A DNA stretch of 28,931 bases from a virus. Both the position numbers and the translations under genes were made by a program. How positions within the stretch are numbered: position 1 is the stretch's first letter; every line of letters starts with the position of its first letter. The notes beneath the pieces were generated by a model. The model worked only from the letters and a program-made list of their open reading frames with translations, did not search any database and was not told the DNA's origin. Shown one piece after another: positions 281 through 26,141 of the stretch. The stretch is taken from IMG/VR virus record IMGVR_UViG_3300025072_000029, positions 1-28,931 of that record; one strand, given 5' to 3'.

Positions 281-2695
281 TTGGCAGTTTATGACGCTCC
301 TTTAGAGGGAGCACAAGAAGAAAATCTTAATCCTGACGACCTTGATGCAGGAAAAGGCGAATCTGGTTCAATAGAAGAAGAAACCCGTCGCCTCTTTGAT
401 CTTTATAAGAACAAGAGGTATGATTGGGAGGTTCAAGCCAGGGAAGACCAGGAGTATCGATTAGGCCGTCAATGGACGATAGAACAGGAAAAGAGCCTAA
501 AATCAAGAGGGCAGGCTCCGATTGTTGTTAATAGAATCCATCCAGCTGTAGAAACAGCAAAAGCACTCCTTACTTCTAACAGACCTTCGTTTAAGGTTTC
601 CCCAAGGGAAGATTCAGATACAAGAGTAGCGAATGTATTAAATGCTCTACTCACTTATATGTATGATATCTCCGACGGAAGGACTGAAGTACGTAAAGCG
701 GTTGATGATTACTATGTAGCAGGACTTGGATATCTATTAGTTTATCAAGATGGACAGGCTGATGGCGGTAAAGGGGAAGTAAAGTTTCGTTCAGTAGATC
801 CTTTCGATGTATACGTTGATCCTAACTCAAGAGACAGATTCTTTGAAGATGCAGAAAATATTATTGTATCACGTATTTTTACTAAAGCACAGGCTAAAAA
901 GTTATATCCATTATATGCAAATGCTATTGATTCAGCTTCTGGTGGGGAATATACTACTGATCAGATTGTAACAGGCAATACTGATAATACAGCAATAAAG
1001 TTCCCTGGAGATGAGAATACATTCGAATCAGATACTTATGTCAGAGGTTATGAAAGATACTATAAAATTCGTGAAATAGCATATCGGGTCCATGAAAAGT
1101 ATTCAGGTAAAGAATTAAGACTTAACCAAGAGGAGTATCAACAATACCTTGAAACGGAAGTTGGTGTACTTGGAGAAGGGGCACAGACTCAGGTATTTGA
1201 GGGCGAACAGATAGAAGCAAAGAAAGGACAAGTTGCACAGCAAAGAGACCAGGTACTTAAACAAACAGCAGATCAAATAGACGGTGGTATCGAGAAACAA
1301 GCGTCAGAGCTTGAGGTGCAGTATATTGAAAAAGAGAAAGAACTCAATGAGTTGTTGGAACTGGGTGAAATAGTCCCAGACAGGGCAGAGCTTGAACTTA
1401 GTAATTTAAGAGAGCAGATTGACAAACAAGTACAAGATGCTTATAATCAAGCCCTTGAGAGTGCAGGCCAGGTATCGGAGATACCTACTGTAAAAATGGC
1501 AGTTAAGGCTGGACTCATAAAGCTTGGTTTAATAGAAGCAATCCCCGTAACAATAACTAAAGTTAAGATGTGTGTTGTAATTGGCGAGACTTATGTGTTT
1601 GGAAGAGTACTTCCATCATCAACGTTCCCGATAGTCCCAATATGTAATTTACATACTCGTACTCCATATCCAATGTCAGATGTGCGTATGGTAAAAGGAC
1701 TACAGGACTATATTAACAAAACTCGTTCACTTATTATAGCACATGCAACTACTTCAACCAACATGAAGGTTATGATCCCAGCTGGTTCAGTCGATATGGC
1801 TGAATTCGAGCAGAAATGGGCACAGCCTGGTGTAGGTATTGAGGTAGATTTTGATATGGGGCAGCCTGTCGTAGCCAGTCCAGTACCTCTACCCAATGAA
1901 CTCTACCAAAACGAGCAAACAGCCAAAAGCGACATCGACCACCAACTTGGACTCTACGAAATGATGATGGGAAATTCCCAAGCTGCCCCACAAACTTACA
2001 AAGCAACTATTAGCCTGGATGAGTTCGGACAGAGAAAGATTAAGTCTAAACTTGCTGATATTGAAGCTGGGTTACAGATCCTTGCTAAGGTTGCAATCCC
2101 AATGATGCAAGAATTATATCAAATGGATAAGGTATTTAGAGTTGTTAATCCAAATAACTCTATGAGTGAATACGCTATAAATAAGCGTTTATATGACGAT
2201 AAAACAAAAGAGATACAAGTTTTTAATGATATTACTGTTGGAGCCTATGATGTTGTATATGTTTCAGGTTCGACACTTCCGTCTAATAGATATGCGGAAC
2301 TCGAATTCTACATGGAAGCATACAAAGCTGGGCTCATTGATAAACAGGAAGTTTTGAAGAAGACAGAGGTCTTCGACATGGAAGGAGTACTTCAAAGAAC
2401 CGATGTTATTGCTCAATTACAGCAACAACTCAAGTCAGCGACTGAGCAACTTAAGAAATTAAGTGGCGATATGCAGACGCTCACACGTGAGAATGTACAC
2501 TTGAAGCAAAAAGTAGAGGTTGAGAAGTTCAAGACTCAACTCGATTCAGTAGAAAACAAAGCGAAAGCTGCGGGAACACTGTTCGACAAGAGATTGGGCG
2601 ATCAACTATCATTGGTTGAAAAAGAAGTACGGGATGCAGCAAAAGAAGCCAGCAAACCTCCATCCGCATCTAATGGAGCTGCTAAAAGGAAATAA
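281..2695 (+). CDS. Portal protein, P22-like, with internal coiled-coil insertion
   Basis: The portal is the dodecameric ring at one capsid vertex through which DNA enters and leaves. At 804 residues it is larger than most portals. The N-terminal third has portal-type features: an early R-x-G-R-Q-W segment, I-V-V-N-R-I near residue 83, and a D-P-F-D-V-Y-V-D-P block near residue 180. The block near residue 560 (G-L-Y-E-M-M-M-G) and the following helical stretch fit the P22-type portal family (from memory, not a search). Residues about 280-410 are a highly charged Glu/Gln/Lys coiled-coil-like stretch that looks inserted. A second coiled coil (about 700-785) ends the protein and may form a barrel or interact with scaffold. 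TTG start; the next gene begins 3 bases after the stop. Confidence 0.85.
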   Translation: MAVYDAPLEGAQEENLNPDDLDAGKGESGSIEEETRRLFDLYKNKRYDWEVQAREDQEYRLGRQWTIEQEKSLKSRGQAPIVVNRIHPAVETAKALLTSNRPSFKVSPREDSDTRVANVLNALLTYMYDISDGRTEVRKAVDDYYVAGLGYLLVYQDGQADGGKGEVKFRSVDPFDVYVDPNSRDRFFEDAENIIVSRIFTKAQAKKLYPLYANAIDSASGGEYTTDQIVTGNTDNTAIKFPGDENTFESDTYVRGYERYYKIREIAYRVHEKYSGKELRLNQEEYQQYLETEVGVLGEGAQTQVFEGEQIEAKKGQVAQQRDQVLKQTADQIDGGIEKQASELEVQYIEKEKELNELLELGEIVPDRAELELSNLREQIDKQVQDAYNQALESAGQVSEIPTVKMAVKAGLIKLGLIEAIPVTITKVKMCVVIGETYVFGRVLPSSTFPIVPICNLHTRTPYPMSDVRMVKGLQDYINKTRSLIIAHATTSTNMKVMIPAGSVDMAEFEQKWAQPGVGIEVDFDMGQPVVASPVPLPNELYQNEQTAKSDIDHQLGLYEMMMGNSQAAPQTYKATISLDEFGQRKIKSKLADIEAGLQILAKVAIPMMQELYQMDKVFRVVNPNNSMSEYAINKRLYDDKTKEIQVFNDITVGAYDVVYVSGSTLPSNRYAELEFYMEAYKAGLIDKQEVLKKTEVFDMEGVLQRTDVIAQLQQQLKSATEQLKKLSGDMQTLTRENVHLKQKVEVEKFKTQLDSVENKAKAAGTLFDKRLGDQLSLVEKEVRDAAKEASKPPSASNGAAKRK

Positions 2696-23214: not shown

Positions 23215-23376
23215 ATGAATAAAGAAGAGATCAACAAGGAAATAGAGAACTTAGAAATGAGGAAAAAGCAGGCTGAAGCACTCTTTATAAGGTGTGAAGG
23301 AGGCATAGAGGTACTGCAAATGTTATTGGAAAAGTCCAATACCGAAGATAAACCTGTTGTTGATAAGAAAAAATAA
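23215..23376 (+). CDS. 53-residue coiled-coil protein
   Basis: A tiny Glu/Lys-rich protein, M-N-K-E-E-I-N-K-E-I at the start and a Lys-rich end, that reads as one long amphipathic helix over residues 2-40. The consensus AGGAGG and neat fit between neighbours make it a convincing gene. Small coiled-coil proteins of this kind are frequent in phage structural operons, but the function is unknown; a minor virion subunit or assembly factor is possible. Confidence 0.75.
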   Translation: MNKEEINKEIENLEMRKKQAEALFIRCEGGIEVLQMLLEKSNTEDKPVVDKKK

Positions 23377-23422: not shown

Positions 23423-24136
23423 ATGGGCATAGCGGACTGGTTCGGGGCACCTAAGAAAATAGACCCTGCGAAGATCCAGGGAATGATGACCTCGGAATAT
23501 ACTACTCAGATGGGTGATCGTGCTCAGCAAATGGCGGATCCTAATTCTCAACTGATGCAAGGTATGTATCAGAATATGCAGAAACAAGGTGCAGATCAGT
23601 TATATGCCCAAAATAGAATGGCTCGAGCTGGTGCAATGCGTCAGAACATGGGTGGACAGAGTGGTATATTAGAAGCTCAACGACAACAGCGTGTAGGTGC
23701 ACAGGGTAATCAGAATGTTCAGAACTTTTCTAATATGCAACAGGGAAACCTAAATGCATCTAATCAGCTATTAAGTGGGGCAGCTACAAATGATATGACA
23801 GCTCGTAGTGCTGCTGCCTCTGCTTATGGTCAGAATATAACGAATGAGAATAATTATAACTCTGCTATGGGTGGAATGGTTACTCAGTTAGCTGGTGGTG
23901 CTATGATGGCAATGTGTGACCCTCGTACTAAAACAGGTATGAGAAAAGTTGGGATTATAAAGACTTCTAAGAAGCCTATAAATCTCTACTCTTTTAGTTA
24001 TAAAGGTTCTGGAGGTAAAAGATCAGTAGGGCTTAGCTCGACTAATGTTAAACAACAGTTTAAATCTTTTGTTCAGAAGGATAAAAAGGGACTTGAATGG
24101 ATTAACATGACCAGATTAAAGGACGTATTAAGATAA
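23423..24136 (+). CDS. Internal virion/ejection-like protein with degenerate S74-type C-terminal domain
   Basis: A 237-residue protein. Residues about 20-160 are Gln/Met/Asn/Ala-rich and helical, like DNA-ejection proteins. From residue 164 the sequence reads M-C-D-P-R-T-K, then V-G (about 176-177), then P-I-N-L-Y-S-F-S-Y-K (185-194), then S-V-G-L near 201, and a final segment with G-L-E-W-I-N-M-T-R-L. This follows the order of the intramolecular chaperone (peptidase S74) domain: S-D-x-R-x-K, then Y-x-F-x-Y, then G-V-x-A-Q, then an aromatic-N/D-x-x-x-L end. The catalytic Ser position is Cys165, with Lys170 kept. It is shorter than typical S74 domains. AAAGG lies about 11 bases before the ATG. 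Confidence 0.65.
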   Translation: MGIADWFGAPKKIDPAKIQGMMTSEYTTQMGDRAQQMADPNSQLMQGMYQNMQKQGADQLYAQNRMARAGAMRQNMGGQSGILEAQRQQRVGAQGNQNVQNFSNMQQGNLNASNQLLSGAATNDMTARSAAASAYGQNITNENNYNSAMGGMVTQLAGGAMMAMCDPRTKTGMRKVGIIKTSKKPINLYSFSYKGSGGKRSVGLSSTNVKQQFKSFVQKDKKGLEWINMTRLKDVLR

Positions 24137-24906
24137 TGGCTGGTGAAAATTTTATTAGTGCAGAAGCCTTAGAAGCTTTTAAACAAAGCGGGTTATATGA
24201 TCCTGCTGGTGCAGGTGCTTTAACTCAAATGATGAATGCTATGAACGCTGGTAAGGTTGATAGTAAAGGAATGACAGTTACTCCTGAAGCTAATACGGGT
24301 GCAACAGAAGAAGAGGGTGGTAATGACTTTAAAAAAGTTATACAAAAAGACCCTAAAACTGGACTACCTACAGGGGTTGCAGCCACACGGGAAGTAGGGG
24401 ATGATCATAATCAGACTTTTACTGTAGATGAGATTAATGATGCAAAAGTAACGTCAAGCTTAAGTGGTCAGAACATTAAGCCAAATGATTTAGCAGCTTC
24501 AGCTAATCAGGGTTCAAATATAAGTACAACTGATAACTCACAAGCTGTTGATCTAAAAGGACAACAAGCTGTTAATGACTCCAAAGAAGAAATGGAGAAA
24601 CTTCCTAAACCTCCTCAGACTTTATTTGGAATGGCTTCTAAAACTCTTGATAAGAGTGGTTTTACTGAAGGAGCTGACAAATTTGGAGATATGGCTGGAG
24701 GCTGGGGGATGGAAGGTTTAGGTAAAATGGGCATGGATGCTGGTGTTGGAGGTAACCTTGCTGGTGCTGGACAAGCAGCGGCTGGATTTGGTGGAAAGAT
24801 GCTTGGAATGGCTGGTAGTGCACTAAGCCCAATTATGGCAGGTATGGGTACTGCAATGCATGGAATAGGCAGAGGTATGATGGGCATACAAATGCCAAGG
24901 TATTAA
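24136..24906 (+). CDS. Gly/Met-rich ejection-type protein
   Basis: A 256-residue protein. The N-terminal half is acidic and disordered (Asn/Asp/Thr/Ser). From about residue 180 to the end it is dominated by Gly, Met and Ala with small-residue spacing (G-x-G-x-x-x-G-like, for example G-M-E-G-L-G-K-M-G-M), like a glycine-zipper helix that could insert into a membrane. No enzymatic motif. Coupled to the previous gene by TAATG, with AAAGGA 12 bases upstream. In this cassette it may form part of the channel for DNA entry; that is inference from composition and neighbours. Confidence 0.55.
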   Translation: MAGENFISAEALEAFKQSGLYDPAGAGALTQMMNAMNAGKVDSKGMTVTPEANTGATEEEGGNDFKKVIQKDPKTGLPTGVAATREVGDDHNQTFTVDEINDAKVTSSLSGQNIKPNDLAASANQGSNISTTDNSQAVDLKGQQAVNDSKEEMEKLPKPPQTLFGMASKTLDKSGFTEGADKFGDMAGGWGMEGLGKMGMDAGVGGNLAGAGQAAAGFGGKMLGMAGSALSPIMAGMGTAMHGIGRGMMGIQMPRY

Positions 24907-25532: not shown

Positions 25533-26141
25533 ATGGCAGTTATGGATAAGTTACAACAAGCAGGAATGGTTCAGCAGATAGATCCTCAAGATGCGAGAGG
25601 TACTGGTGGCGGGTCAGCTGGACGTCGTGGAGGTATGAGAGGTTACGTACCAGATTGGTTACAAAATGCAGTTGCTGGTGGAGCTGATGCGTTAGGTTTT
25701 GATGATATGGCGGATTATATTCGTCCAGGCGGTGGTGGTAGACAAACACACGGCACTGGCTCAGGATTAAATCCAATGGCCTTTTCACAACCAGATTGGA
25801 TGATTCAGTCAGCGAATTTCAATCCAGCCGATAAAGATCAGGTTTTAAAAGCACAGCAGATGTTAAATCGCTTAGGCTATAAAGATGATGCTGGTGAACA
25901 GTTGCAAGAAGATGCACAGATGGGCCGTAAGACAGAATCGGCGTATCGCCAGTGGGTTAATGATACCAGGGCTACAGCAGGTGACGACACCTATAAATAT
26001 GACTATAACGAAGGGAATCCACGTAAAGGTTTTCTTGGAAGAGCATATCAGAATATTGATAAGAGACTTGGTGGTTGGTTACCTGGTGGTTACAAAAGGG
26101 ATCAGGCTGAGATGACAAGAGACGAATATAAAAACAGATAA
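25533..26141 (+). CDS. Virion protein with peptidoglycan-binding-like domain
   Basis: A 202-residue protein. The N-terminal ~90 residues are Gly/Arg-rich, with a short D-W-L-Q-N-A-V segment. Residues about 96-146 resemble a peptidoglycan-binding type 1 domain: D-K-D-Q-V-L-K-A-Q-Q-M-L-N-R-L-G-Y, an acidic loop, then G-R-K-T-E-S-A-Y-R-Q-W. The usual order is a first helix ending L-x-x-L-G-Y, then D-G-x-F-G-x-x-T-x-x-A-V-x-x-F-Q. Here the loop is E-D-A-Q-M-G-R-K-T. Such domains anchor proteins to cell wall. In an ejection cassette this would target the wall during DNA entry. No lytic domain is visible. AAAGGAG is about 6 bases before the ATG. Confidence 0.65.
   Translation: MAVMDKLQQAGMVQQIDPQDARGTGGGSAGRRGGMRGYVPDWLQNAVAGGADALGFDDMADYIRPGGGGRQTHGTGSGLNPMAFSQPDWMIQSANFNPADKDQVLKAQQMLNRLGYKDDAGEQLQEDAQMGRKTESAYRQWVNDTRATAGDDTYKYDYNEGNPRKGFLGRAYQNIDKRLGGWLPGGYKRDQAEMTRDEYKNR

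Follow-up and report, generated by a model that had tools for sequence, protein, structure and literature searches.

Self-cleavage in the S74/ICA family, as worked out so far in the work cited here, is carried out by a Ser-Lys dyad (PMC3828593, PMC8326128, PMC4690869). In endoNF, MrfA, MyRF and T5 pb1 the chain is cut just before the Ser, which is required, and cleavage of MrfA and MyRF also requires the Lys (PMC3828593, PMC8326128, PMC4690869). In fibres, S74 cleavage employs an Arg that the neighbouring chain contributes from its upstream beta structure (PMC4690869); MyRF cleavage needs no contact with upstream beta structure (PMC8326128). No report of a Cys variant of S74 was found in the open-licence papers searched, which is weak evidence of absence.

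Short S74 domains are also found in podoviruses. Rhizobium phage RHph_Y1_10 EVB56_081, Sinorhizobium phage phiM5 gp27, Microcystis phage Mae-JY35 and brucellaphage ORF23, the last listed in 2015 as 'Structural protein (peptidase_S74)' (PMC4422536), share with the protein described here its architecture, a domain of 62–83 aa and, apparently, a gene placed before those for internal or injection proteins. In RHph_Y1_10 the 'peptidase_S74 domain-containing structural protein' directly precedes two injection proteins and matches both PF13884 (Peptidase_S74, E 5.6e-7) and phrog_4287 (E 1e-42). For the phiM5 relative the database record states presence in virions. The small ejection proteins P22 gp7 and T7 gp14 have the same size class and, apparently, the same gene slot. 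P22 gp7, gp20 and gp16 are 229, 471 and 609 aa long, and the ejection-protein review describes no S74 tail on gp7 and contains no S74/endosialidase term (PMC8954989). An S74 match was not found in the DNA-ejection protein gp03 of Vibrio phage VvAW1.

Gene neighbourhood

The window, by which we mean the whole 28.9 kb stretch of DNA that was analysed, is a virus record. It encodes a P22-type portal and a capsid protein, and its tail and internal-protein genes form a block. Its features are listed in Table 1. The nearest relative, locus L048, is syntenic and encodes a Cys-type protein 50% identical to the 237-aa window protein over its full length.

Table 1. Features of the window, with positions, strand and supporting evidence
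Feature	Position	Strand	Evidence or remark
P22-type portal	281-2695		phrog_156, E 1.8e-69
2025-aa fibre	15982-22059		residues 1518-1638 are Pfam DUF7359 (E 3e-34)
53-aa gene	23215..23376	+	directly upstream of the S74-tailed gene; kept beside the L048 relative, blastp 44% over 36 aa
Small ejection-type protein, 237 aa, with short C-terminal S74-type domain	23423..24136	+	probable P22 gp7 slot; phrog_4287 and L048 relative
N-terminal part, residues 1-164	23423..23914	+	mostly helical as predicted, low confidence; AlphaFold2 full length, pLDDT mostly <75
Hydrophobic stretch YNSAMGGMVTQLAGGAMMAM, residues 145-164	23855..23914	+	directly before the predicted cut; top 1% hydrophobicity of its own protein
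Short S74/ICA-type domain, residues 165-237, 73 aa	23915..24133	+	profile HMM, AlphaFold2, structural match
Cys165, TGT	23915-23917	+	column of the catalytic Ser (S911 of endoNF, S587 of MyRF); alignments and MyRF ICA structural match
Asp166, GAC	23918-23920	+	next to Cys165
Lys170, AAA, predicted general base	23930-23932	+	equivalent to K916 of endoNF, K592 of MyRF
256-aa protein	24136..24906	+	directly downstream of the S74-tailed gene; position of the next internal/ejection protein, by gene order
202-aa protein	25533..26141	+	weak peptidoglycan-binding match (PF01471, E 0.0027), below cut-off
Two genes, 338 and 436 aa	26141..28484	+	same block; syntenic in L048, blastp 49% over 35 aa and 38% over 129 aa

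Among the relatives the S74 gene lies between tail or neck genes and larger internal virion proteins. The usual gene order around Cys-type members is a neck-type gene of ~470–530 aa, one of ~150 aa, the S74 gene, and genes of ~340–480 and ~550–620 aa. In several relatives the two genes that follow match P22 gp20 and gp16 in size, as in L038, where the sizes are 261, 442 and 611 aa. In the window and L048 the genes 3' of the S74-tailed gene are smaller than in these relatives and unassigned, up to a giant ORF in L048. A 249-aa ORF of L048 occupies the place of the 256-aa window protein, and the 202-aa protein is also present there (blastp 31% over 87 aa). The giant ORF of L048 (1-6923, >2300 aa, open at the locus end) closes the ejection block and is without a clear Pfam match; the window ends before the corresponding place.

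The 2025-aa fibre gave no S74 match in a Pfam search, as had been expected from its sequence. Its DUF7359 region is ~44% identical to YomG of Bacillus phage SPbeta and is present in Enterococcus phages, an odd partner for a phage with a P22-type portal.

Homology of the C-terminal domain to S74

The C-terminus of the window protein reads ...GGAMMAM-C165-D-P-R-T-K170-TGMRKVG...INLYSFSYKG...VGLSSTNV...GLEWINMTRLKDVLR. Used directly as a query, the protein found no relatives in phage records, IMG/VR or GTDB genomes, and searches with the other window genes led no further than capsid-bearing fragments that lack the S74-gene region. The relatives were entered through RHph_Y1_10, a phage with a distantly related portal. 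Starting from it, 11 phage homologues were gathered whose last 62–83 residues align with the last 73 of the window protein, and column by column the window residues keep the S74 order, as the original prediction had it. The codons at 23915-23932 likewise confirm its dyad motif, C165-D-P-R-T-K170. All 11 aligned phage-record homologues have Ser; the window protein carries Cys instead, and its core has diverged further. A match to an Acinetobacter phage was weak (E 5) and looks like chance.

A profile HMM built from 11 short S74 domains, the window excluded, scored the window protein at 21.9 bits; the best of 2000 shuffles reached 7.6 bits and the best other window ORF 4.6 bits. Against PF13884 itself the window protein had no match at E<=1. 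The profile search that had been suggested as a check thus succeeded with the short-S74 profile and with L048, which matches PF13884 at E 9.6e-10, and failed for the window sequence against the Pfam model. PF13884 is matched by all 67 other members of alignment A6, and by the more distant, Ser-type relative L201 (31% identity) at 1e-5. The window domain is the most diverged of the set, with an end branch of 4.28, SST in place of MAQ and Lys in place of a conserved Pro. It probably misses the Pfam model because its sequence has drifted, as the MAQ-to-SST change and the long branch indicate. Against the PDB, the subfamily profile recovered MyRF, the GA-1 appendage (3gud) and two tail fibres. By these comparisons, homology of the C-terminal domain to S74 is secure.

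Structure prediction, also proposed as a check, gave an S74/ICA-like fold. The AlphaFold2 model of the domain, made on 68 sequences, has a pLDDT of 89.7. Its top PDB match is the MyRF ICA domain 7dc3 (Z 4.4, rmsd 2.2, 58/78 residues), followed by unrelated rows at Z <=2.9; as support for the modelled fold these scores are moderate, not strong. Foldseek alone gave no significant match to the domain model, and MyRF ICA ranked first in the second structural comparison. Model residues 21-78 superpose on MyRF 602-679, and the offset of 422 puts Cys165 on Ser587 and Lys170 on Lys592. Profile score, Pfam match of L048 and fold together bear out the assignment to the S74 type, and the alignments and this offset place Cys165 at the catalytic Ser with the Lys kept, both as predicted. 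MyRF and MrfA differ from the window protein in being eukaryotic transcription factors with a Ser nucleophile and a longer domain, released from a membrane anchor. The CIMCD of endosialidase, T5 pb1 and the GA-1 neck appendage shares the homologous core and the pattern nucleophile-D/N-x-x-x-K, but is longer, has a C-terminal coiled coil, sits on trimeric beta fibres and uses Ser.

Carriers of short S74 tails

No trimeric beta-helical fibre or spike precedes the window domain; the part upstream is predicted to be helical and matches an ejection-protein profile. The match to phrog_4287 'DNA ejection protein' (E 7.2e-10, residues 19-233 on profile positions 165-387 of 392) agrees with the earlier view of the carrier as ejection-type. 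That view had also held a helical carrier to be unusual and the domain to be unusually short. Neither is borne out: in a large subfamily the two features are the rule. At least 441 relatives with a short S74 tail on an ejection-type protein were found among the first 600 candidate stretches of IMG/VR, and 23 relatives with such a tail, mostly from Alphaproteobacteria, in GTDB genomes. The carriers of short tails are helical and often Gln/Ala-rich, the N-parts of several Cys-type relatives match the 'DNA ejection' family phrog_598, and a helical, non-fibre carrier is common to many S74 members that Pfam recognises. The arrangement is common: in hundreds of phages and prophages the first ejection-protein slot (phrog_4287/598) is taken by a helical protein that ends in an S74 domain of 62–83 aa.

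Other carriers were seen as well. Uniform short S74 tails occur on beta-rich proteins of 650–850 aa in many IMG/VR contigs (L135, L151, L154, L158 and similar), a second big carrier class besides the ejection proteins. In three viral loci (L112, L113, L139) and two genomes (L263, L265) the S74 core is in mid-ORF, with an ejection-type N-part before it and ~650–930 residues after it; in L265 the segment after the core resembles a cell-wall hydrolase by eye. Self-cleavage in these cases would split a fused polyprotein. L137 and L274 are very small proteins that consist of little more than a hydrophobic stretch followed by a short S74 domain, the Ser being preceded by 77 residues; they are possibly membrane-anchored minimal forms.

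Ser and Cys at the nucleophile position

The nucleophile column was sampled without bias by using only the region after the Lys as query. Of 80 viral loci of IMG/VR, 78 have Ser and 2 have Cys in this column, and Asp (+1) and Lys (+5) are present in 80/80; all 23 prophage loci in GTDB genomes read S-D-K. Together these samples, which contain near-copies, are ranked by similarity to one query and could miss loci from which the entire motif has gone, give Ser in 101/103, Cys in 2/103 and no other residue. The Lys170 column is Lys in 67/67 aligned relatives. Cys in place of the cutting Ser is what is new here, and only a small fraction of the relatives shares it.

Three alignments of the family proved too diverse to support a pattern scan. 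A DNA pattern with TGT at the nucleophile codon matched 18 stretches in the whole of IMG/VR, a complete listing, and 18/18 are short S74 tails on ejection-type proteins; the same pattern with AGT gave at least 120 matches. The TGT scan demanded Lys and Asp, so retention of Lys in Cys members is an unbiased observation for the window, L054/L038 and L128 only. Cys was commoner on helical than on beta or long carriers (Fisher p 0.003); this comparison uses a crude composition rule and at least 120 Ser matches and is a lead only.

In a tree of 118 domains the Ser/Cys changes number 9 by parsimony, of which at least 4 are forced by supported branches; the tree has few columns and its deep forks are unsure. 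Locus L043 (CCT AGT TGT GAT) differs by three bases from the close L142 and L165 (CCT AGT GAY), so that Cys adjoins the Asp and Ser is retained one place upstream. At the sequence level this comparison shows what appears to be a recent gain of Cys. Cys165 is the sole Cys of the window protein. Of 70 Ser-type proteins, 64 contain no Cys, and in 12 Cys-type proteins every Cys lies within the domain. The pattern suggests that Cys may be a repeatedly evolved alternative nucleophile. Because Cys165 replaces the Ser, the window domain lacks the Ser nucleophile of the S74 family and cannot be called a serine peptidase, although it is homologous.

Proposed cleavage and alternative explanations

We propose that the window encodes a small ejection protein of a podovirus with a P22-type portal, whose 73-residue S74/ICA tail would cleave itself through Cys165, and put the probability of this reading at roughly 0.55. 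The domain would fold, probably associate with sister copies, and hold the upstream hydrophobic segment in check until assembly. After assembly Lys170 would activate the thiol of Cys165, and this thiol, in the part played by Ser in the relatives, would attack the carbonyl of Met164. Hydrolysis of the S-acyl intermediate would complete the cut of the Met164-Cys165 bond. A domain of ~8 kDa would then leave, and the ejection protein would keep a hydrophobic, possibly membrane-active C-terminus that may serve the ejection channel.

The cut is predicted between Met164 and Cys165 because in the known cases S74 domains cut on the N-terminal side of the nucleophile; the original prediction had placed it one residue later, before Asp166. 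A cut at this place would make the nucleophile residue 1 of the released piece, a position in which Cys is chemically reasonable, as in Ntn hydrolases and inteins. Across 82 non-redundant relatives the 20 residues before the predicted cut site rank highest in hydrophobicity within their protein (median percentile 0.99, Wilcoxon p 5e-15), and for this reason the domain may be a chaperone or mask of a hydrophobic tail. By analogy with the fibres, a helical partner presumably cannot supply a neighbouring-chain Arg in their way, which counts against self-cleavage by Cys. In MyRF, mutating the Gln of the motif that our alignment equates with MAQ disturbs cleavage (PMC8326128). Given this effect, and since it is the most diverged copy with both the MAQ and the Pro changes, the window protein could be impaired, and on its sequence cleavage activity seems less certain here than in L048 or L036.

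The original prediction had left open whether Cys is an alternative nucleophile or marks a loss of cleavage. Should cutting have been lost in the Cys variants, the domain would stay attached for good as a module for trimerisation or assembly, with Cys a tolerated one-base replacement of Ser. The strong divergence of the window domain fits such a loss, as does the rarity of Cys in the unbiased loci, mostly at tree tips in the manner of mildly harmful or relaxed changes; TGT is also one base from the Ser codons AGT and TCT. However, a free position should hold Ala, Gly, Thr or Asn too, which occupy 0/103 loci, and Lys and Asp are kept in the window and in L128/L038. Cys has also persisted, since L048 and the window both have it at ~50% identity, and in L043 it arrived by a 3-base insertion beside a retained Ser and was then kept. 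We consider loss of cleavage unlikely, though a serious competitor. A working Cys nucleophile is favoured over a dead domain because the column holds only Ser or Cys and the Asp and Lys never vary, so the first of the two options gains and the second recedes.

It is improbable that the Cys serves otherwise, in a disulphide between copies or as the lipid attachment site of a membrane-facing tail. As either role would have it, this Cys follows a hydrophobic stretch and most of the proteins contain no second one, but an N-terminal signal peptide is absent and the residue sits exactly in the catalytic column with Asp and Lys retained. A lipobox was rejected, the residue preceding the Cys often being Met, Leu, Val, Phe or Arg. 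That a short C-terminus merely resembles S74 by chance is more improbable by far. The window sequence lacks a Pfam match and the Foldseek E-values are weak, but the profile score stands far above the shuffles, syntenic L048 matches Pfam at 1e-9, the phrog_4287 match extends through residue 233, and the best structural match is an S74/ICA domain that is clear of the unrelated rows and agrees in offset.

Implications

Self-cleavage through Cys165 invites a wider proposal, which we hold tentatively and at somewhat less than even odds: that a Cys-Lys form of S74 occurs naturally, arose several times from Ser-Lys, processes ejection proteins within the phage head and unmasks a hydrophobic tail required to build the DNA-ejection channel. 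The alternative-nucleophile idea is directly testable. If true, part of the S74/ICA family would fall into another catalytic class through a natural and recurrent Cys-Lys version, which would also offer a thiol handle for trapping the intermediate. This version would further point to a step in the maturation of podoviral ejection proteins, one that is missing from the ejection-protein review (PMC8954989). With many short S74 tails on ejection proteins, the question of maturation is general and reaches beyond the window phage.
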